Positions 16,771-60,162 of a DNA stretch of 64,000 nt are shown one piece after another. Position 1 is the first letter of the stretch; each line of letters begins with the position of its first letter. Origin of the DNA: Nothopassalora personata. Lineage: Eukaryota; Ascomycota; Dothideomycetes; Mycosphaerellales; Mycosphaerellaceae. The stretch lies in NCBI GenBank assembly GCA_033816765.1, contig CM066292.1, forward strand, positions 1,364,001-1,428,000, in the 5' to 3' direction. Both the position numbers and the translations under genes were made by a program. The notes beneath the pieces are model-generated. The model worked only from the letters and a program-made list of their open reading frames with translations. It had not been told where the DNA came from and ran no database searches.

Positions 16771-16825
16771 GATTAATAAGAACAGGGACATAACTCACAA
16801 ATAAATACCCTTACGAAGAAGACGG

Positions 16826-17374
16826 CTAAGCTACCGACGGTACCGTCTTGCTAGAAGGAGAAAGCTAGAAGTCGTCCGGAAGACCTTCGATAGCACTCTA
16901 GGTCCACGGAGATAAGGATAGATTAGGAGCACTAGGATCCGCGTCTACTATAGCGTACTTCTACACTCCTAGATCCTCGTCTAGTAATAACCGATCTTCT
17001 AACGAACGGCCCTCCGTAACCTTCTAATCAACCGCATCTAATTACTTACGAAGGCGCATTTCCTTTACATACGCTTCTATTAAGGCATCCTACCTTTTAC
17101 TAAGAATTCTCTTCGCGGTATCTAGTTCCTATAACAATTTCTTCCGCTAAAGCGATAAGCGCTTCTACTCGCCCTCGGTTGCCCTCGCATTGCAACTCTT
17201 TAGATTCCGCTACTAGTACTCGGAACAGCGACTAGATGAGATGTGCACCTTGCATACACGGCCCTCCTTTTAATAAGAATTATACGGACGCATCGCGGTA
17301 TCGCCGTCACGGAAGATCTACTAGGCTTTCTTCTTACGGCGAGCGGTAGATTTAGATTAGGAGAAAGAAGACAT
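16826..17374 (-). pseudogene. Gypsy-1 antisense ORF: Zn2Cys6-like plus coiled coil (RIPed)
   Basis: Read on the minus strand from ATG 17374-17372 to TAG 16828-16826 there are 183 codons with no frameshift, broken only by TAG/TAA stops. The N-terminus is basic (SKSTARRKKKA). Cysteine positions follow C-x2-C-x6-C-x8-C-x2-C-x7-C when TAT/TAC codons that fit mutated TGT/TGC are counted; surviving residues include GRVCKVHISSSRCSE. A charged helical region with KRILSKR and KEMRLRK follows. The start lies 75 bp inside the 3' LTR and the ORF converges on pol. Same position, length and motif as the antisense ORFs of Gypsy-2 and nonaut-A. Confidence 0.8.
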
Positions 17375-26255: not shown

Positions 26256-26813
26256 ATGCCTATCCACTAACGCCCTTCTAGCACTATCCGTCGCCGCCGT
26301 CTCTACGAGTTCGTTAAATCCGCGGGAGAAGTCATAGTTAAGAAATGCTTAACGTGTGAAAAGCATAGTCGCGTATGTAAGGTGCACATTCGTTCCGGGA
26401 AGTATAGTGAGTGTCTTCGTCGCGGCTAAAGGTGCGATGTAAGAGTAACTTAGTCGGAGTTTAAGAGGTTAGTAGAGGAGAAGGCTCGTCTTTGTTAGAA
26501 AATCCAGGAGTCTCGGTCCGCTTAGGAGGAGGCGATGCGGGTTTATAAGAAGGCTCTCGAGGATCTAAAGATTGCTCGCGCGCGCGAGGAGCGCTTACGT
26601 TAGTAGATAGATCTAGTAGATCGTCGTGCCGAGGAGGCGATTTCCGTTAAGGAAAGGGAGATTGAGGAGTAGGAGATAGAAGAGGCTTCTTTACTTCCTT
26701 CGGATATCCCTTATAAGGGTCTAGCTCTTAACTTGTTACTAGGCACATAGGGTACTATTAAGGGTCTCGGTAACGAGTTCTAGGAGGTACCCGAACTACT
26801 CCCTACTAGTTGA
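26256..26813 (+). pseudogene. Gypsy-2 antisense ORF: Zn2Cys6-like plus coiled coil (RIPed)
   Basis: From ATG 26256 to TGA 26811-26813 there are 186 codons in one frame, broken only by TAG/TAA. Arg-rich N-terminus (STIRRRRLYEFVKSAGEV), then KCLTCEKHSRVCKVHIRSGK followed by a tyrosine (TAT, fitting a mutated Cys codon), SEC and a final C. The spacing is C-x2-C-x6-C-x8-C-x2-C-x6-C, the Zn2Cys6 pattern. A Glu/Arg/Lys-rich helical region (KKALEDLKIARAREERLR; EEAISVKEREIEE) follows. It is antisense to gag-pol and starts 91 bp inside the 3' LTR. Counterpart of 16826-17374 and 28842-29396. Confidence 0.82.
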
Positions 26814-28435
26814 CTTGTAGGTCTTTGTTTTTCTTATAATATTCTCGGATCTTTTATTAACAGTTTTATAGGTTGTTTTCTAGTTCCTAGGTATTTTCTG
26901 ATTCGTCGTATTCTTTCCATTTAATAAGGTATCGCTGACCTTTCTTATCTAGGATTCTTTCGACTTCGAATTCGTTTTCTACTTCCGGCTCGAAATGGAA
27001 GCTCTCCTAGTAGGGTGTTTCGGCGTCTACGGGTTCTAACTTAGAGACATAGAAGACTAGGTGGATTTTTGCGTCTAGTGGTAGTCGTAGGCGGTAGTTA
27101 ACTAGTCCTATGACTTTATCGATAAAAAATGGTCCGACCTTAACGTAATCTAGTTTCTTGGTCTATCTTCTTGTTCTTAAGTTTTTTGTAAGGAGATAGA
27201 CCTTATCCCTCTCTTTTAGTAGAGGTACCATTTTTCTTATGTCCTGCCGTTGTTAAGACAGTTTTTATTATGCATCTTCGATCGCCTTACGTGTTTCTTT
27301 ATGTACTTCCTTAAGAGTATCCGTCGTCACGATTGCTCTCTCGGCCTGTGGATAGGATCTAGGTGTTCCGAATAGGTTAGGATCTTTACTAAAGTTCGCA
27401 TAAAATAGCGTCGTTGAAGTTGTCTCTAATTTGTAGTTATTTAGTGCAATCTGCGCCATTGGCAGTAATGAGACCTAGTTGTCTTATACATAATTGATGT
27501 AGTGTCGTAGGTATTGTTCTAGCGTTTAATTCATCCTTTCGGTTTGTCCGTCTATTTCCGGATAATATGCTATTAATAGCTTATGTTTAATTCCGATCGT
27601 TCCCATAAGCGTCTTCTAGTAGTTTAATATAAATAGCTTATCTCTGTCCGTTATAAACGCTTAAGGGAATCCGTAGTATCGGATAAGTCTATCTAGTACG
27701 AGGTATCCGAGCTGCTCTACATTGTACGTTTCTAATGTAGGAATGAAGTATACGTATTTTATGAGCCTATTAACCATAACTAGTATTATGTCGTATAGTT
27801 GTTTCGTAACTTAATCTCTTAACGGTGGGAGTTTCGTAATAAAGTCCATTGTAACTTCGTCCTATAGTTTCGTCGGTAGTGTCCTGAACTGTAGGTAACC
27901 GTATTTTACATGTCTCGTAGCCTTGTTTCGTTAGTAGTATACGCATTGTTTAATGTAGCGTGACACCTTAAGTCTTATCTATAGAAATGAGAAACTGCGC
28001 TGTATTAGGTCTATAGTTTTTAAAGTTCCGTGGTGTCTATAAGTTAGTCCGTCGTAATGTTGTCGTATGCATTCTTCTTCTCAATCCTTTAGTACCTAGT
28101 ATTTTCCTTGCGATATAGGGAATTGTTCGTCCCTATCGCCTAATATCCGTACGATGTTATTAAATTCTCTTATGTTAGTACTAAGACTTCCGTCGGGGTT
28201 CGTCTTTAATATTTTATGTTACACTGGTTCTTTTTCTTCCATGTAGTCGCTTCTTCGGCTCAGCGCGTCGGCGCGGCCATTCTCTCGTCCTAGAGTATAT
28301 TTGATTTCGAACTTATACTATCCTAGTAGCTCTGACTAGCGGGCTTGTCTTCGGGTAAGTTCTTTCGTCGTTATAAAGTACGTAAGATTCTTATAGTTAG
28401 AAAGAATCGTTAACTTCGGTAGGCCCTCGACATAT

Positions 28436-28765
28436 TGTTAGGAACCGCTGTACGTTATCACAACTCGGACTTGGATCTTTGCAGGGATGTCTCAATCAGT
28501 TATGAAGGTAGTGGTTCCAAACAGTATATAGTGTATACTTAAAATGAGTTGAGCACGAGGCTCCTATCTATACTCGTAAAGAAGCGTCGTCTATATAGTG
28601 CCATGTCTTGGCGTGACTGATCAGTCGGATCAGTTGATCTGTCCTGCTCTCTCTGCTCTGTTACAGAGCACGCAGATCGGAGAGAGCACTCTGCATATCG
28701 GATCCTTCCACTAGTGTGTAGGCATCGATTGGTTGGCTGGAGCTTCTCCGGATCGATCCGTAACA
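28436..28765 (-). repeat. Nonaut-A 3' LTR
   Basis: 330 bp, next to polypurine tract (complement of CCATCCCCCCTTTA). The U5 side is shared with nonaut-B; the U3 side differs and contains an AGAGCAGAGAGAGCAG-type repeat. Confidence 0.92.
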
Positions 28766-28841
28766 CCATCCCCCCTTTAGCCTAGCTTCGTCCCGAAGCT
28801 CTTACATAATGAATGTGTCCCTAATTCATGTTTCGTCAACG

Positions 28842-29396
28842 ATGTCGTCCTCTCGCAAACCATCCTCCAAGATCAGTTCATCCGTCCGTCGAACCCGCCT
28901 TGCTGACAAGATCGAGTCACTTGGGGTCGTCATGGTCCAAAAATGCAGTCGCTGCGTGGCAAAGGATATCGCCTGCCGCGTGCATATCTCATCTGGAAAG
29001 TGTGATGCTTGTGTTCGTTCAAACCACAAGGGTTGCGACATTGTTGTGTCGGAAGGCGACTGGTCCCGCCTGCGAAAACAGCGCGCCGCTCTAGAGGAGA
29101 AAATGTCGTTGCATCTGCGCAGAATGCGCGAGTTGCGGGCGACACTCCAGCGCCTCCAAGAGGAAGAAGCTGCCGCGTGGGAAAAGAAGTCCCGCCTTCA
29201 GAAGGAGATGGATCTGCTCGAGAGCCGTGAGGCCGAAGCGTTGTCCGTCGAGAAGTCCCTTCTCGAGGAGCAAGAGTCGGCAGAGCCTGGTCGTGCTCCC
29301 GCATCACCGGTTCCCATCCTTCCTTGGTCGTCCCTCGAGGAAGTGCCGGATACCTTCTGGTCTGATCTCTGTTTCGATCCAGAAGCCGTATCGTAA
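28842..29396 (+). CDS. Antisense accessory ORF: Zn2Cys6-like coiled-coil protein (intact)
   Basis: 184 residues from the second ATG (28842), chosen because its Met-Ser-Ser start matches the Gypsy-1 counterpart; an upstream ATG at 28809 would add 11 residues. The N-terminus is Ser/Lys/Arg-rich. Counting from 28809, cysteines are at residues 46, 49, 56, 65, 68 and 76, i.e. C-x2-C-x6-C-x8-C-x2-C-x7-C, which satisfies the fungal Zn2Cys6 (GAL4-type) spacing. Residues about 85-165 are rich in Arg, Glu, Leu and Gln and should form a coiled coil (LQRLQEEEAAAWEKK; SVEKSLLEEQE). The C-terminus is Pro/acidic. Known Zn2Cys6 proteins are nuclear transcription factors that dimerise by coiled coils; a DNA-binding role here is inference. 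It starts 76 bp inside the 3' LTR, so U3 may act as its promoter. Confidence 0.8.
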   Translation: MSSSRKPSSKISSSVRRTRLADKIESLGVVMVQKCSRCVAKDIACRVHISSGKCDACVRSNHKGCDIVVSEGDWSRLRKQRAALEEKMSLHLRRMRELRATLQRLQEEEAAAWEKKSRLQKEMDLLESREAEALSVEKSLLEEQESAEPGRAPASPVPILPWSSLEEVPDTFWSDLCFDPEAVS

Positions 29397-29501
29397 GTTG
29401 TTGTCCCGTAGCCTGTTCCGTGTCGTCGTGTTGACTTCTGTGTCCTAGGTCATCAAATCAAGAAGCCGCTGTTTGATGCCTTTATCGTCAGGTCGTTTCT
29501 G

Positions 29502-30500
29502 CTATGCAGATTTCGAGAGAAAGCTCTCGCATTCCTGGTATGCATTCTCTTCGCGAATCATTGCGTTGAACTCGCGGCTAACTATGTTCTTTTTCTTGCA
29601 GTTCCTTGCATAATGGCCTTGCTCGCCACATACGTAGCAGGTGGAACCTTTGCTCTTCAGCCCCCTTCCTGTCCTACGTTCCGTTACGTCCAATTCCATT
29701 GGGTCTCCGTAACCATTAGGGTCCTGACTTCTGGCCTTGAAGCCCCCTCTTCCGCCCGCGGCGGGTCTCTGGTATCCAGGCTGTACGTGTCGGTCGTACC
29801 TCAACTCCTGGAGCCTTTCGTCGATCTCCTTTGCTGCCTTGATCATCGCCCCTAGCGTAACGACGCTGGCGTTTCGGGATAGTTCGGCTTTGACGTTGTC
29901 TTTCAGCCCGAGGTAGAACTGCGATCGCAAAGCTGCGTCGTTCCATTCCAGGTCGGCGGCATATCCTTGGAATTCTGAGGCGTACAGCGCTACAGAAGTA
30001 GTCTGTCGAAGTTGTCGGATATGTCGGTCGGCGTATACCTCCTCATTTGGTATCCCGTATAGATCATCGAGTTTCGTCTCAAACTCGTCGTAGTCGTGGA
30101 AAATTTTTCGAGTTTCCGTTTTCGGTGTTTCTCCCTCGCCCTGGTTGTGTAGCCAGTCCTTGAGGTATGGTCGGAATCCTCTAGCTGCTTTTCCTCGTAG
30201 GAAGGATGCGGCGTACAAGACTTTAGAAGCCTCGCCTTGAAACTGGTGTGCGTTGAAATGAAGGTACAACTGAACCTGCAGTTGAAAAACCTCCAGTTTG
30301 TCCTTGGTCCCGTCGAACGTCTCCGGCGTAGACACCTTAGGTGCACGGTGGTGGTCTAGTGGGTTCAGCATACCCATAGGAGTGTTGTTGTTCTTGCTGC
30401 TTCCTGTAATCGACATTTCGCTCATTCGTTCCGTAATGCCAGTTGACTGTGGCTGTTGTCGTGACGGACTCCGGGTAGCGTCTCTCCCAGACATATGCAA
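29502..30500 (-). CDS. gag: Nonaut-A Gag protein (intact)
   Basis: 332 residues, uninterrupted. The N-terminal 45 residues are Ser/Gln/Asn-rich. A Ty3-type gag core follows (AASFLRGKAARGFRPYLKDW near residue 100; FYLGLKDNVKAELSRNASVV near 195). Arg/Gly-rich linker, then a CCHC zinc knuckle near residue 290 (CYVCGEQGHYARNC) that would bind the element's RNA in virus-like particles. The ATG lies 27 bp inside the 5' LTR junction. Nearly identical to the gag of nonaut-B. No pol follows; the remaining space before the 3' LTR holds the antisense ORF. Confidence 0.92.
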   Translation of the reverse strand: MHMSGRDATRSPSRQQPQSTGITERMSEMSITGSSKNNNTPMGMLNPLDHHRAPKVSTPETFDGTKDKLEVFQLQVQLYLHFNAHQFQGEASKVLYAASFLRGKAARGFRPYLKDWLHNQGEGETPKTETRKIFHDYDEFETKLDDLYGIPNEEVYADRHIRQLRQTTSVALYASEFQGYAADLEWNDAALRSQFYLGLKDNVKAELSRNASVVTLGAMIKAAKEIDERLQELRYDRHVQPGYQRPAAGGRGGFKARSQDPNGYGDPMELDVTERRTGRGLKSKGSTCYVCGEQGHYARNCKKKNIVSREFNAMIREENAYQECESFLSKSA

Positions 30501-30526
30501 AGGGCCCTGGTGGTGGTGCTCAAAGT

Positions 30527-30856
30527 TGTTAGGAACCGCTGTACGTTATCACAACTCGGACTTGGATCTTTGCAGGGATGTCTCAATCAGTTATGAAGGT
30601 AGTGGTTCCAAACAGTATATAGTGTATACTTAAAATGAGTTGAGCACGAGGCTCCTATCTATACTCGTAAAGAAGCGTCGTCTATATAGTGCCATGTCTT
30701 GGCGTGACTGATCAGTCGGATCAGTTGATCTGTCCTGCTCTCTCTGCTCTGTTACAGAGCACGCAGATCGGAGAGAGCACTCTGCATATCGGATCCTTCC
30801 ACTAGTGTGTAGGCATCGATTGGTTGGCTGGAGCTTCTCCGGATCGATCCGTAACA
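30527..30856 (-). repeat. Nonaut-A 5' LTR
   Basis: 330 bp, apparently identical to the other LTR, which implies recent insertion. No obvious tRNA 3'-end primer site follows it. Confidence 0.92.
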
Positions 30857-33599
30857 CATATACTCTTTAATGTTGTATAGTAGCAACAATGGCTAGAAGC
30901 TCTTTATTATAGATGTCGCAGTTCTATTCCGCTATGGTTATTTTCCGGGAGTAATAGGCTACTAGGTGTCTCTACCTATCGTGTGTCTATGTTAGACATG
31001 CGCCTATTGCTATATTAGACGCATCGGTCTCGATGTGGACTTCCTTACTACCATCGAATAGTCGAAGCGTAGAGGCTAAAGCGCATTGTTCCTTAAGTTT
31101 CTTAAATGCTTTAATCTGTTCCTTTCCCTATTTCTAAGTAACGTCCTTTCTTATAAGCATCGTTATTAGTGCTACTATTTTCGCGTAGTCCTTAATGAAT
31201 TTCCGGTTGTAGTTCGCTAGTCTAAGGAATAATTGTACGTCCTTAACTGTTTTCGGTTCTAGCCATTCTCTAATTAACTGTATCTTCGCAGGGTCGATTG
31301 TTATCCCTATAGTGCTAATAATAAAGCCTAAGAATTTAACTTCTTTCTTATGGAATTCGCATTTCTCGGGTGCCGTCTTGAATCCTAATTGCGTGAGTCG
31401 TTCGAAGACGTCCTAGACTTGTTTTATATGTTCTTGTAGGGATCCTTTCGTATAGACTAGTATGTCGTCCATGTAGGCGATAACGTATACGTCGAGTAGG
31501 TCTCTAAGTGTTTCGTTAACAAGGTCCTAGTAGGATACGGGTGCGTTAGTTAATCCCATTAGCATAAGTAAGAATTCGTAAAGTCCGTATCTTATTCTAA
31601 AGGCGGTTTTCCATTCTTCTCCTTCTACTATTCGTATAGCATAGAAGGCATCTCGTAGGTTAATCTTCGTGTACTAGTCCGATCCGGTTAATCTATCTTA
31701 TGCTTCTTCGATGTTAGGTAGCGGGTATCGGTTCTTAATCGTGATCTCGTTTAACTTCCTATAGTCTTATACGAGTCGTAACTTCCCGTTTGCTTTTAGA
31801 ACGAACATGCATAGAGTTCCTACACTCGAGGTGGATCTTCTTATCTATCCTTTAGCTAGCTTCTCCTTCAGCCATTCTCGTAGAGTCTATAGCTCTTTCT
31901 TAGACATTTAATATAGGGGTCTCTATAGAGGCTCTTTCCCTAGCTAAATGTTAATCTTATAATCCTATAGGCGGTGCTTAGGTAAGGCGGTTTTGCCTCT
32001 CTCCTCTTTAAAGAGTCGCGACTACTTGCGATACTCCTTAGGAATACTTAACTCTAAGATGTTAGTATTCTTCGATAGTGCGTTACTTCTATCACTTCTA
32101 GTAACTTCGTAACCCGGCGGCCCTACGCTAGTGTCTATCCCGGTCGAAGGTAGTTCTTCTATCCTTCTGTTCGGCGTAAGCTATATCTCGTTTAGCTATT
32201 TCCTTACCTTATCTACTAGTGAACGCTACTACTACGTCGGCTAAATGTCGATAACGCAATCGCATTCCCTAAATGTAAGTACTCCTCTTCTCTAGTCGAT
32301 TACTGGATTGTGCTTTCTTAACTAAGGCATACCTAATACTATGTTATGACTAGCTATATTAGTGACATCTAAGGTAATATTCTCGTAGTACTATTAGATA
32401 GCCAGTGGCAATGGTGTCGTCTCCTATTCTACGCTAGGTAACGATAATCCGTTTACCGCGATCAACTCATAACCCTATTTCTTCTTTAGGGTAGCTAAAC
32501 CGTTTCTTCTTATAAAAGACTCGGAGATAAAATTCCCCGCTACTCCTAAGTCGATTATAACACTAGTCTTATGTCCGTTAACGATTGCTTATGTCTAGAA
32601 AACTGTGTTTAATGTCGATGCGTAAGCCTAAGTGTTGCATAACTCCCTCCGGTTGCTTATTCCTAGGGAGCTAATCCCTTTCCCAAATAGTATGTGGTTC
32701 GCTATGCTTCGTGCCTAGAGGCTTCGGCTAGAACCTGTAGCCCGTTACCCTGTGTCTACACTTATTGTCTATTACGTTCCTAGATGTTCTACGTTTCTAA
32801 GTAGAGTGCGCGTGCGTGCTGCACTATGTTGCGTAATTCATTCGATATAAACGTTCCTAACGGTATAAGATATCCGGTTCCTGTTATTCGGCTTCCTATC
32901 GGTAGTCGTTCTATAACGGTGGTTACTAGATTCTCGGTTATTTCCATAAGTGGGTATCCCTAGGCTATGCCTCGTAGGGTGTCGAGTGTCTTGTTAAACT
33001 TAATGGAATATAGCTTCCTTCGTCCACCTATCTTAGGTAGGAATTCCTCGTACCTTCTTTATAGGTAGATGATTATGTCGTACAGTTTCTTAGGTGCATC
33101 TACCGTGAAGGTAAGTTGTTTATTGTCGTCGTTAGTGTCGCTCTCTTCTCCTTCGGAGGAATCTTCTTCGCTTAATTCTTCCGGATCCTATTCTTCCTCG
33201 ATAGTATCTAGCCCGGTAGTTTCTTAACTTTCTTCCTATAGTTCTAGTAACTATAATCCGTTCTATCCTAGGTCCTAATTTTCTTTGTCGCTTCTATCTT
33301 CGTTAAAGTAGGATTTATCGATGTCCACTTCTCGGAGCGTAGCGTCTTGCCTATGCGTCGCTCCTAGGGTTCCTCGTGGTTACTAAGGCTAATACCCTAC
33401 GCCTAACTTCGCGGCGTAGTGGATTTGACACGAGTCTTAGTAACAGAATCGCTAATGAAGGCTTCTATAACCATTTCGAGACTCGGATTCAGTCCCGTAG
33501 TCAACTCTTCGTGTTATTATATTGAACTGTCGTAGTTGGTTCTTCGCATTAAATGGAATGACTACTATTTGTTACCTATAGTATCCTCCTCGTTCTTCT

Positions 33600-45606: not shown

Positions 45607-45853
45607 TGTTAAGATGTAGCATCTTAAGGGGAGCTAACAGTTAGGTTATAATCTAATAGCCTAAGGCATCTACGATAACTTAGCTTATCGGAAGATACCT
45701 TCTCTCCCCTTTAGCTTAGATAGACATCTAACACAATTAACACATTAGTTCCTAGTATATTGCTACATGCCCTGTAGCTATTAGCTAGTTGAAGATTAAT
45801 CTCTTACTCTACTCCGCTGCTAACTACGTATCCTATAAGGTCTTAACTCAACA
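45607..45853 (+). repeat. Copia-2 5' LTR
   Basis: 247 bp. Differs from the 3' LTR only at a few positions that look like C/T or G/A changes. Confidence 0.92.
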
Positions 45854-45870
45854 GGTTATAAGCCCGGGTT
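45854..45870 (+). other. Copia-2 primer-binding site (half-tRNA-iMet type)
   Basis: GGTTATAAGCCCGGG, one RIP-type G-to-A away from the Copia-1 site; complementary to a Met tRNA anticodon arm rather than a tRNA 3' end. Confidence 0.65.
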
Positions 45871-50973: not shown

Positions 50974-51220
50974 TGTTAAGATGTAGCATCTTAAGGGGAG
51001 CTAACAGTTAGGTTATGATCTAATAGCCTAAGGCATCTACGATAACTTAGCTTATCGGAAGACACCTTCTCTCCCCTTTAGCTTAGATAGACATCTAACA
51101 CAATTAACACATTAGTTCCTAATATATTGCTACATGCCCTGTGGCTATTAGCTAGTTAAAGATTAATCTCTTACTCTACTCCGCTGCTAACTACGTATCC
51201 TATAAGGTCTTAACTTAACA
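50974..51220 (+). repeat. Copia-2 3' LTR
   Basis: 247 bp, equal in length to the 5' LTR. The preceding purine tract is degraded to agataagtaggag. Confidence 0.92.
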
Positions 51221-53429
51221 CGTATCGTCTTTAATAGAGTAGTTCTATTCGTCGCGGCCTTTGCTACGCGTCTACCGCCGGTAGTATCGATCGATCGCTC
51301 CTTAAAGCTTAAGAGCGCGTCTTATTATAGCTAGCGTGCTGTTCTACCTTACTCCGCCGTCGCGGATTAAGCGAAGGTAATTATAATAGAGGGAGGTCTA
51401 TTCGTCGCGCTAGGCTTCGTTAAATGCCTCGATTCGTACTTCGGAGCGATAGATATAGGTAACGAGGTTATAAAGTTTGCTAATCGCGCCGGCCTTACGC
51501 TATAAGGTAAAGGACTCGTCGTCGCCTACGAGAAACAGTTAGATTACGACCGAGGAGTGTTGTTTTAATTAGGCTATAGACGCGTTTTAAGCGCGAATCT
51601 TCGTGTTAGCCTCGTAAGTTAAAGCAGTTCTTAGGCCTCTTATTAGCCGATAGATCTAAGGGTAGTTTTAAAAGATTAAGAAGTGTATTAGGGGTTTTAT
51701 AAGGGGTATCGCAACGCTAGCTTCACGGGCGTAATCTAAGTGTTTCTACTTACCTACCTTACGTAACTCGTCTTCGAGTCGCTTAAGTCTGTCGCTAAAC
51801 AATAGCGCTTTAACGACGAGGTTAATTATGTGTCCGAGGCATCGTAGTCGCTGTTCGTGCTCGTCGATAGGCTACTAGAGTAATGCCGCGAGCGCTCGAA
51901 TCGCCGTGTCGTTATTGTCCGTATTATCTATAACGAAGGCCCCTATCTTACCGTCTAAGTTAAAGTCGTTAATTACCTATCGCGCTACGGTCGCAATATT
52001 AACCCTATTATAATGTCCGCCGACCGGTCGCAATCCGAGTAACGCTATCTTAAACTACCTGTTCGCGTCGATAAAGTGCGCTACGACGGCGAGTAGCGAT
52101 AGATCGTTACTCGTCGCCTAGATATCTATACTAAGGTGGACCTTAGCGACGCGCTTAAGTTGTTTCGCGAGGTCTAGACGTCGTTCGCGATAGGCCTACT
52201 TAAGCTATTACGACATAGTTCGAGCCGCCGGTAGTAGATGTTTCACGGTAGGGCCTCCGCCGAGTATAACCTTTCGGAGGTTATCGCTTACCGCCTGTTC
52301 GAAGGTAATGTCGTCGCGGACGATCTAGTTAATAAAGTTAGTTAAAAACTGCTCCGTAGCGAAGGGGTCGAGTCGCTCGAGGTATATAGCGATCGCGGTC
52401 TCGTCTACTATCGGTAGCTTCGTCGCCGTCGCACGCGACGGTAAGATACCGTGTTTCGAAAGGAGGTAATCTATATAGCTAGTAGTCGAGCGACAAGCCT
52501 ATAACTGTCGCGTCGTATTGTCCTTATAGCAGTACCGGTAGAGCTAGTATCTACCCTTTGCCTTACCGCGTTCGAGCTTCTAGACCTCGAGTCTATACTT
52601 AAAGATAAACGATATCTTATTACCGAAGGTGTTTCTTTTATTACGGAAGCGTAGTACGACCCTATCGCCCTTTAGACGCGTATAATCGATGTAGAAGTAA
52701 CATTGCTCTAAGGCTGCGACCGTAGCCTACTCCGTGCCGCTAGCATCGTCGCCAGCGTCCGAATGCTCGCTATCTTCGGTCTATGTGTTTAGTGTATTGT
52801 TAGCGCTCGATTACGACGCTGTCGGCTACGTAGGAGGTGGTGTTTCTAGTGTTTTGTTCGTAAAGGGGAGGGTAGATTAGGATGTTCGCGCTCGCTTCAA
52901 TCGCGTAGCCTATGTCGTAGGTCTAGGCCTAGGAGTTTTAGGTTCGACTTAACTATGTTAGCGCTTACTTTTACGAGTCTATAAAGCTATATTGAGGTGT
53001 TAGTTGTAGTATAATAAGGGCGACAATATAGTAGTAGATCCTAAGTCTCCTAAAAGCTCTTCTCCGGAGTGCCGTAAGGTTTAGAGGTGTAGCTTCCGAG
53101 GAAGGGCCGCGCGGGTCGGAGCCTACTCTAGCTAACAGATGGCTGCGATCTAATCTACGATATCTAATTAACAACGGTTTTACGGGGAAATAACGCTTAG
53201 TATTTAGGTCTTTTACTAAAATAAGCCCTAAGAATCACATGCAATATTAAAGATTCACTAATAAACACGACTATATATACCTATCAACTGCTCAATTAAG
53301 TTGCCTATAATGGCCAGTTAAGGGTTGATTAATCTACAATAGTTAGTTGATTGATTGAGGCCCTTAATGCTAACTAAAGTTGCAACCCTTAGTTAATAGG
53401 CGTTAGTTAATGCGGACACTATTAGTATA

Positions 53430-58163: not shown

Positions 58164-58511
58164 TGTTACGGAACAGTGTTATCGGTGCAAATGGTTGGAC
58201 AACGGAGCAGGAAACCAGACGAAGCTGCAGACATGGATGCCTGGGGAGTCACGTGACAGAGCGATCAGGACTGATCGGTCCTGATCACTCTTGATCAGTT
58301 GATCAGACTCGCTCAGGGCAGAGCAGGACAGATCACGCCAAGACATGGCACTATATAGACGACGCTTCTTTACGAGTAGATAGGAGCCTCGTGCTCAACT
58401 CATTTTAAGTATACACCATATACTGTTTGGAACCACTACCTTCATAACTGATTGAGACATCCCTGCAAAGATCCAAGCCCGAGTTGTGATAACGTACAGC
58501 GGTTCCTAACA
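58164..58511 (+). repeat. Nonaut-B 5' LTR
   Basis: 348 bp. Its U5-side half matches the nonaut-A LTR; its U3 is different and is packed with GATCAG/CTGATC palindromic repeats. Confidence 0.93.
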
Positions 58512-58537
58512 ACTTTGAGCACCACCACCAGGGCCCT

Positions 58538-59537
58538 TTGCATATGTCTGGGAGAGACGCTACCCGGAGTCCGTCACGACAACAGCCACAGTCAACTGGC
58601 ATCACGGAACGAATGAGCGAAATGTCGATTACAGGAAGCAGCAAGAACAACAACACTCCTATGGGTATGCTGAACCCATTGGACCACCACCGTGCACCTA
58701 AGGTGTCTACGCCGGAGACGTTCGACGGGACCAAGGACAAACTGGAGGCTTTTCAACTGCAGGTTCAGTTGTACCTTCACTTCAACGCACACCAGTTTCA
58801 AGGCGAGGCCAGCAAGGTCTTGTACGCCGCATCCTTCCTACGAGGAAAAGCAGCTAGAGGATTCCGACCATACCTCAAGGACTGGCTACACAACCAGGGC
58901 GAGGGAGAAACACCGAAAACGGAAACTCGAAAAAATTTTCCACGACTACGACGAGTTTGAGACGAAACTCGATGATCTATACGGGATACCAAATGAGGAG
59001 GTATACGCCGACCGACATATCCGACAACTTCGACAGACTACTTCTGTAGCGCTGTACGCCTCAGAATTCCAAGGATATGCCGCCGACCTGGAATGGAACG
59101 ACGCAGCTTTGCGATCGCAGTTCTACCTCGGGCTGAAAGACAACGTCAAAGCCGAACTATCCCGAAACGCCAGCGTCGTTACGCTAGGGGCGATGATCAA
59201 GGCAGCAAAGGAGATCGACGAAAGGCTCCAGGAGTTGAGGTACGACCGACACGTACAGCCTGGATACCAGAGACCCGCCGCGGGCGGAAGAGGGGGCTTC
59301 AAGGCCAGAAGTCAGGACCCTAATGGTTACGGAGACCCAATGGAATTGGACGTAACGGAACGTAGGACAGGAAGGGGGCTGAAGAGCAAAGGTTCCACCT
59401 GCTACGTATGTGGCGAGCAAGGCCATTATGCAAGGAACTGCAAGAAAAAGAACATGGTTAGCCGCGAGTTCAACGCAATGATTCGCGAAGAGAATACATA
59501 CCAGGAATGCGAGAACTTCTTCTCGAAATCTGCCTAG
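58538..59537 (+). pseudogene. gag: Nonaut-B gag with one-base frameshift
   Basis: Starts at ATG 58538 with the same protein as nonaut-A gag. Near 58930 the run reads CGAAAAAATTTT, with one A more than the nonaut-A copy. The first frame then ends after 140 codons; the second frame carries the rest, including the CCHC knuckle (CYVCGEQGHYARNC), to TAG at 59537. Only a few residues differ from the intact copy, so the frameshift is recent. A programmed shift is conceivable but the nonaut-A copy needs none. Confidence 0.88.
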
Positions 59538-59814
59538 CAGAAACAACCTGAGGACAGCAAGGCATCAAACAGCGGCTTCTTGATTTGATGACCTAGGGAA
59601 AAGAAGTCAACACTACGACACGGCCACAACGAACAAGAATACCCACGATGGGAGGACACCACTGGGGGTTTCTAGGAAACCAGACCGGGAAATTTCGTCC
59701 AGAACGCGCTTGCGACGGTCAGTCGAGGACGGCATCGTTAGCAAGAGAAGGAAAGGACTCACAAGTCTTTATAAAATGGATTGTTGGGGACAACAATGCT
59801 GAAGGGGGGGATTA
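59538..59814 (+). other. Nonaut-B region after gag, antisense ORF lost
   Basis: The first about 80 bp match the same place in nonaut-A, then diverge where the antisense ORF would end. The remaining sequence up to the polypurine tract has no recognisable coding content. An open frame at 59648-59935 runs into the LTR and is not supported. Confidence 0.6.
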
Positions 59815-60162
59815 TGTTACGGAACAGTGTTATCGGTGCAAATGGTTGGACAACGGAGCAGGAAACCAGACGAAGCTGCAGACATGGATGCCTGGGGAGT
59901 CACGTGACAGAGCGATCAGGACTGATCGGTCCTGATCACTCTTGATCAGTTGATCAGACTCGCTCAGGGCAGAGCAGGACAGATCACGCCAAGACATGGC
60001 ACTATATAGACGACGCTTCTTTACGAGTAGATAGGAGCCTCGTGCTCAACTCATTTTAAGTATACACCATATACTGTTTGGAACCACTACCTTCATAACT
60101 GATTGAGACATCCCTGCAAAGATCCAAGCCCGAGTTGTGATAACGTACAGCGGTTCCTAACA
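59815..60162 (+). repeat. Nonaut-B 3' LTR
   Basis: 348 bp, apparently identical to the 5' LTR. Confidence 0.93.

Follow-up and report, generated by a model that had tools for sequence, protein, structure and literature searches.

The window analysed here is a stretch of 64,000 nucleotides from the fungus Nothopassalora personata (contig CM066292.1, positions 1,364,001 to 1,428,000 of the forward strand), and our subject is an antisense gene carried by nonaut-A, a long terminal repeat (LTR) retrotransposon at positions 28435-30857 on the minus strand. Repeat comparison places the 5' LTR of the element at 30526..30857 and its 3' LTR at 28435..28766, both on the minus strand and identical to each other at 332/332 bases; the part of U3 upstream of the TATA box spans 28598-28765 in the 3' LTR. 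The gag gene (29502..30494, minus strand) encodes 330 amino acids with a CCHC knuckle, is matched in Pfam by Retrotrans_gag (E 8.5e-11) and CCHC, and is followed by no pol. The polypurine tract is found at 28766..28779 on the minus strand (taaaggggggatgg on the sense strand of the element).

Between gag and the 3' LTR, on the strand opposite to gag, lies an intact open reading frame (ORF) of 184 amino acids (28842..29396, plus strand), as described in a first prediction made from the letters of the window, hereafter the original prediction. That account had the ORF begin 75-91 bp inside the LTR. The distance stood, being 76 bp for nonaut-A when counted from 28842, but the ORF starts internal to the LTR edge and does not overlap the LTR. 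A second in-frame ATG upstream, at 28809, would yield a version of 195 amino acids and a distance of 43 bp. The encoded protein carries a six-cysteine cluster with the predicted spacing, C-x2-C-x6-C-x8-C-x2-C-x7-C, at residues 35-65 (28944..29036, plus strand), the cysteines being residues 35, 38, 45, 54, 57 and 65. The cluster is followed by a long helix, a predicted coiled coil, at residues 71-147 (29052..29282, plus strand) and by an acidic, aromatic C-terminal tail at residues 148-184 (29283..29393, plus strand) with a conserved Trp162. Searches for further copies were run over the whole source genome of 54.5 Mb in 40 contigs.

Purifying selection on the antisense ORF

An ORF of at least 184 amino acids was obtained in 4/2000 dinucleotide shuffles of the nonaut-A segment, so that its length is suggestive and no more; the question of chance is settled by the conservation of the ORF across families. 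The most informative comparison is provided by the elements L036 and L041, which encode the same protein type at 97% amino acid identity. Of the 58 aligned bases that differ between the two ORFs, 49 are third codon positions. Counted by NG86, these are 50 synonymous and 8 nonsynonymous changes, corresponding to a synonymous divergence (dS) of 0.417, a nonsynonymous divergence (dN) of 0.017 and a ratio of 0.04. In this one well-measurable pair of intact copies, dN/dS is hence far below 1, and the ratios for L029 are 0.16 against L036 and 0.12 against L041. Distant ORF pairs have a dS of at least 1.2 or infinite, and their finite ratios of 0.21-0.52 are unreliable. Near-identical copies differ by too few changes, as in L017/L026 with 4 nonsynonymous and 1 synonymous.

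We regard it as highly improbable that the frame encodes no protein and is kept open by chance or by a constraint on the DNA or the sense RNA. Both the shuffled segments that yield an ORF as long and the few changes between near-identical copies would agree with such a scenario. Against it stand the 49/58 changes at codon position 3 in L036/L041, the six cysteines, invariant across types of 26-64% identity, and 57 relatives in public data. A chance ORF in particular is contradicted by the codon-position bias and the invariant cysteines. The ORF is a real, selected protein-coding gene, in agreement with the selected function that had been proposed for it.

A Zn2Cys6-like cluster, a coiled coil and an acidic tail

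The protein was aligned in two sets, A1 with 15 relatives and A2 with 55 proteins. The six cysteines are invariant in A1 and conserved at 90% or more in A2, and Trp162 is nearly invariant in A1. A relaxed six-cysteine pattern is matched by 50/55 proteins of A2 and missed by 5; in 29 of those 50 the first loop comprises 13 or 14 residues, outside the canonical x6. Members of the family are 166-240 amino acids long, and a distant relative of the nonaut-A protein is the Botrytis cinerea protein P0056 (E 4.3e-8).

Zn2Cys6 proteins follow the pattern C-x2-C-x6-C-x5-12-C-x2-C-x6-8-C. The nonaut-A protein shows this spacing and, in its predicted model, a Zn2Cys6 fold: AlphaFold2 returned a confident zinc cluster and coiled coil, with a helix over residues 71-147 and a predicted local distance difference test score (pLDDT) of 94-99 across residues 71-140. 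When a 71-residue part of the model was compared with the PDB, 16/16 matches were Zn2Cys6 proteins, each weakly scored, among them GAL4, PUT3, LEU3, HAP1 and PPR1. A sequence-profile search of the PDB aligned LAC9, LEU3 and PUT3 with the cysteine region at E 0.19-3.5. The predicted model and the PDB matches thus bear out the Zn2Cys6-type fold with a coiled coil that had been suggested from the cysteine spacing. Coiled-coil families also match members weakly or below threshold, namely APG6_N in 13/55 and Rod_CreS in 1/15 (E 0.00022).

In the set of 55 proteins, the final 50 residues include on average 8.6 acidic and 1.7 basic residues along with 8.4 of Trp/Phe/Leu, and acidic residues outnumber basic ones in the tail of 53/55 proteins and of 10/11 genomic types. 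An acidic composition rich in aromatic residues and leucine is typical of activation domains, and judged by its composition the C-terminal tail looks activation-domain-like.

Distribution across the LTR elements of the genome

All of the 150 best of 724 candidates that were scored in a genome search with the nonaut-A protein match it. Comparison of loci shows the intact ORFs to be antisense and just internal to the 3' LTR. This applies to pol-less elements, which have the 330-amino-acid gag, and also to autonomous Gypsy elements, whose gag is accompanied by long pol frames (L013, L016, L017, L019 and L026). The L019 ORF has a different N-terminus and lacks the first cysteines. Across 11 intact types, the ORF starts 73-107 bp from the LTR edge.

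A search with gag, in which the best 121 of 1049 candidates were scored (all at least 97% identical, 119 stop-free, nonaut-B lying outside this set), allowed us to count how often the ORF accompanies the chassis. A downstream match to one of eight ORF types was present in 97/121 gag copies. From the other 24, 20 loci were extracted, of which 19, L047 with its shortened frame among them, carry an antisense six-cysteine ORF of further types, and the remaining 4 have an ORF match at the expected place. A recount of strands in the 97 and 4 copies found the ORF antisense in all and on the gag strand in none; 3 of these matches are truncated and 4 contain one TAG. Overall, a recognisable antisense ORF is present in 120/121 scored gag copies, 8 of them truncated or stop-bearing, the exception being L038. 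Some types are known from match identities only, and type M9 solely from a 27% match over 118 residues. For autonomous elements, 150 stop-free RVT_1 matches of 1916 candidates served as a reverse transcriptase (RT) set, and 99/150 have the antisense ORF 1.5-5 kb downstream, a few of them with a stop. The ORF is found in nearly all other family members scored and in many LTR families, among them pol-less ones as first noted for nonaut-A.

Pol-less elements also occur in tandem. Six gag copies lie 2056 bp apart on C12 (G000:C12:1355698-1367583), and L028 1050-5640 shows the order LTR-gag-LTR-gag-LTR, as if neighbours shared LTRs.

Decayed, shortened and ORF-less copies

Within the window, two Gypsy elements had been thought to share the six cysteines with nonaut-A. 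Straight-through translation reveals their frames as relics in which 3 and 1 of these cysteines, respectively, are missing. The decayed relative in Gypsy-1 (16814..17374, minus strand) contains 16 stops, and cysteines 1, 2 and 5 are changed to Tyr. That in Gypsy-2 (26256..26813, plus strand) contains 10 internal stops, or 11 with the terminator as the last, and cysteine 4 is changed to Tyr. Intact Gypsy relatives elsewhere in the genome (L013, L017) retain all six cysteines. Stops in decayed ORF copies are mostly TAG and TAA, and decay rich in TAG and TAA is the pattern expected from repeat-induced point mutation (RIP).

Other copies have no intact ORF. In nonaut-B (58164..60162, plus strand), sequence comparison shows a near-identical gag region and identical LTRs, with the antisense ORF absent, and the same holds for the pol-less L038. 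The ORF is shortened to 141 amino acids in L011 (8026-8451) and to 133 in L047 (1558-1959), both elements again having identical LTRs; the L011-type deletion derivative was matched three times (L011, C3:1886608 and C5:3639324). Because the LTRs of all four elements are identical, elements can move without an intact ORF copy of their own, which weighs against a strict need for it in cis. Among 24 copies of the L017-type family at 97% identity or more, the antisense ORF has one TAG in 9 and one TAA in 1, and elements with a broken ORF of this type may have multiplied.

Elsewhere in the window, direct repeats of 250 bp at 45607-45856 and 50974-51223, 97% identical and 5.4 kb apart, probably mark another LTR element.

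Cassette-like divergence of the 3' end

Pairwise comparison of nine pol-less elements carrying eight ORF types revealed a feature absent from the original prediction, a cassette-like divergence of the ORF on near-identical gag(-pol). Their gag genes share 98.2-99.8% DNA identity with a dS of 0 to 0.052, whereas the dS of their ORFs is 0.42 for L036/L041 and otherwise ranges from 1.2 up to saturation, at amino acid identities of 26-64% (L036/L041 excepted). U3 identity amounts to 54-78%, compared to 42% for equally aligned shuffled sequence. Likewise, the autonomous elements L013 and L017 are 98.1% identical over the first 5 kb of internal sequence and 99.4% over the last 180 bp of the LTR, whereas the first 170 bp of U3 are 43% identical and the ORFs 37.6% at the amino acid level. 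As gag(-pol) is near-identical and the ORF and U3 are divergent, the 3' end, which reaches from behind gag(-pol) as far as the TATA box, differs in its history from the rest of the element. At least 12 factor types, four of them known solely from match identities, are present on one gag chassis, and at least 2 on an autonomous gag-pol chassis.

In a new copy, the two U3s both derive from the 3' end of the RNA, so that a template switch during reverse transcription can swap the 3' end in one step. By itself, such a switch does not account for the persistence of numerous old versions on a chassis that is young; they may have been kept by selection for diversity or captured from other families. 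As a tentative interpretation, which we hold to be possible and less probable than not, the 3' end may be an exchangeable identity cassette that consists of the antisense Zn2Cys6-type factor and the upstream portion of U3. It would be recombined onto a near-constant R-U5-gag(-pol), and its diversity would be kept by selection, as the elements that a factor serves or excludes would mainly be those carrying its sites. By analogy, and with the same reserve, this diversity would resemble that of phage immunity regions or VANC-target pairs.

R-U5 itself (the last 110 bp of the LTR) occurs in the pol-less elements in two versions, 88-92% identical between and 97-100% within versions. They cut across ORF types, which hints at additional recombination.

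Directly before the polypurine tract, 13 elements were seen to have an inverted repeat with a G-rich loop and stems that vary by element. In nonaut-A, comparison with the other elements places it at 28784..28800 (AGCTTCG-n3-CGAAGCT), adjoining the tract. Examples of stems are AGCTTCG/CGAAGCT, TAGTTCCG/CGGAACTA, AACTCG/CGAGTT and ATTGTTG/CAACAAT. The stem is perfect over 5-8 bp in 12/13 elements; in L014b, a stem of 5 bp around a loop of 9 bases was recognised by eye. nonaut-B retains the inverted repeat despite the absent antisense ORF. Two roles are conceivable for the repeat, that of a palindromic site in the DNA and that of a hairpin in the RNA that serves plus-strand priming.

A candidate transcription factor acting on LTRs

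From the composition of the protein and its predicted model, we consider it probable that the ORF encodes a small transcription factor of the element's own that works on LTRs in trans. Such a factor would combine a basic N-terminus and a DNA-binding cluster of Zn2Cys6 type with a coiled coil through which the protein would dimerise and an acidic-aromatic, activation-like tail. Read from the antisense strand under a promoter at the junction of 3' LTR and internal sequence, it would bind sites in U3 or at the LTR edge and would raise, or with lower likelihood tune, sense transcription of elements with matching sites. Acting in trans, the factor of one copy could also serve copies that lack the gene. 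We consider an activator or anti-silencer more likely than a repressor.

A repressor or copy-number controller, which would bind U3, limit sense transcription and confer immunity on elements of the same type like a phage repressor, is the first alternative, and we judge it unlikely. Deltaretroviral antisense proteins are described as restraining their virus (PMC10186651), Ty1 as encoding a subfamily-specific restriction factor (PMC12530519), and hypervariable cassettes on one chassis are the expected look of heteroimmune groups. On the other hand, the C-terminal tail is acidic and aromatic as in activation domains, and the families have reached a very high abundance, many of their copies being intact and near-identical.

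A little less likely still is a sequence-specific anti-silencing factor like plant VANC, targeting tandem repeats within the element's non-coding sequence. Target spectra of VANC proteins are reported to differ, and their tandem-repeat targets to vary among related elements (PMC5735166). In line with this, 6/13 U3s tested hold repeated 7-mers above all 300 shuffles, and the RIP-like decay indicates that silencing pressure is present in the host. However, the repeated motifs are partly common to several types, and fungal silencing is unlike plant DNA methylation.

We attach a low probability to a role in integration or nuclear entry, in which the protein would, for example, tether the pre-integration complex to DNA and not act in transcription. 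Plant antisense ORFs have been discussed as acting in the nucleus and as having a part in nuclear entry (PMC7264820). The antisense strand and LTR-proximal place, by contrast, fit a regulator expressed apart from gag-pol, and an acidic-aromatic tail and a Zn2Cys6-like fold are traits of transcription factors.

Several results weigh against a transcription factor acting on LTRs or are null with respect to it, including the uninformative distant and near-identical ORF pairs described above. First, the proposed profile check was negative. The nonaut-A protein has no match to PF00172 (Zn_clus) at E<=10, and no match among it and the relatives scanned reaches the curated cut-off of 21 bits. Of ten relatives scanned singly, five matched with 7.7-14.7 bits; 7/15 matched at E<=10 and 18/55 at E<=1, the best at E 0.0038 (~18 bits by estimate). 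Being below the cut-off, the protein is filed as Zn2Cys6-like in fold and not as a PF00172 member. Many of the 51 matches in the sequence-profile search of the PDB are to the coiled-coil part.

Second, the ORF was not found with the query set used in 51/150 RT copies. Grouped by score and frame length, these comprise 26 copies with frames of 1150-1408 amino acids, 18 with 694-1718 and 7 others; the ORF may be absent from them or be present in a remoter version.

Third, U3 sequences gave no uniform picture. CGG/CCG half-sites are typical of Zn2Cys6 targets, and CGGATCGATCCG stands at the start of the nonaut-A U3, but not every U3 has such a pair, and general CGG/CCG operators were not found across those compared. 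The other 7/13 U3s are not so clearly above shuffles in their repeated 7-mers, and the motifs GAGAGCA and TGATC are common to several types. Similarity of whole U3s did not follow that of ORFs in nine elements (rho 0.08, p 0.34). In twelve elements, the correlation was weakly positive for LTR 9-75 (rho 0.24, p 0.02) and missing from LTR 75 to the TATA box (rho -0.05, p 0.60). Individual pairs diverge: L036 and L041 have the same ORF, with LTR 9-75 just 45% alike and repeat arrays at LTR 75-150 that are 84% alike without gaps (68% counting gaps), while nonaut-A and L012 are 80% alike in LTR 9-75 and 41% in the ORF. Finally, the mobility of nonaut-B, L038, L011 and L047 fits a shareable factor and also a dispensable one.

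Comparison with known systems

The closest known counterparts are antisense genes of other LTR retrotransposons. One of them, brtn, was reportedly described by Zhao et al. in 2011 (Virology 417:248). It is presented as an antisense gene, function unknown, of the Boty-like Gypsy elements of Botrytis cinerea (PMC7264820, PMC8365987, PMC4227169, PMC5987419), and like the nonaut-A ORF it is an extra gene of a fungal LTR element, antisense to gag-pol and between pol and the 3' LTR. The passages on brtn in these citing papers, by whose description the two are compared, mention neither a zinc-cluster fold nor cassette divergence, and the nonaut-A-type ORF is present in many families and in pol-less elements.

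Plant LTR retrotransposons carry antisense ORFs termed aORF-3R, for example gene23 of maize Grande, and those of rice RIRE2 and Silene Retand (PMC7264820). They share position and orientation with the nonaut-A-type ORF, which lies antisense between gag/pol and the 3' LTR in most copies, and the Grande product is reported to be nuclear (PMC7264820). The sections on these ORFs name no clear protein similarity apart from SMC for PvRetro13 and transposase-28 for Retand (PMC7264820), whereas the nonaut-A-type protein has a predicted Zn2Cys6-like fold.

HBZ of human T-cell leukaemia virus 1 (HTLV-1) is also antisense and 3'-LTR-proximal and combines DNA-binding/dimerisation and activation parts; it is described as lowering HTLV-1 expression, APH-2 as inhibiting replication and APH-3 as inhibiting LTR activity (PMC10186651). 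HBZ is a bZIP protein of demonstrated expression, whereas the putative nonaut-A-type factor has a predicted zinc cluster and coiled coil, and no bZIP family appears among the Pfam matches of the nonaut-A protein; the likeness is at most one of function. Ty1 p22/p18 resembles it as an element-encoded, subfamily-specific regulator, but is a capsid domain acting on particles (PMC12530519); gag and capsid families are absent from the Pfam and PDB matches of the nonaut-A protein. VANC of the Arabidopsis VANDAL elements is, by description, likewise an element-encoded factor diverging among relatives with varying tandem-repeat targets, but belongs to an element of another kind than LTR elements and has had its binding and effect shown (PMC5735166).

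In the proteins themselves, the likeness is to the fungal regulators GAL4, PUT3, LEU3, HAP1, PPR1 and Pho7, with which the nonaut-A protein shares the six-cysteine spacing, the predicted fold with its cysteines in register and a coiled coil after the cluster. It differs from them in that the family stays below the Zn_clus cut-off, is 166-240 amino acids long, often has a 13-residue first loop and is encoded antisense within mobile elements. Host Zn2Cys6 regulators have a large middle domain, which the short family proteins lack.

Among the matches listed, an antisense LTR-retrotransposon ORF joined to a Zn2Cys6 fold was not found in the open-licence literature, and both this fold and the 3' cassette appear new. 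Should the protein bind its own LTR, fungal LTR elements would possess a transcription factor dedicated to them, and its specificity would be directly testable on the many combinations of factor and U3 that occur naturally within one genome. This would also suggest that uncharacterised proteins in several filamentous ascomycete classes are transposon regulators. Antisense genes beside the 3' LTR were already known, without a function, from plants and from Boty of Botrytis; such a gene can now be assigned a predicted Zn2Cys6-like fold, is strongly indicated to be under selection and shows a population pattern that was not foreseen.
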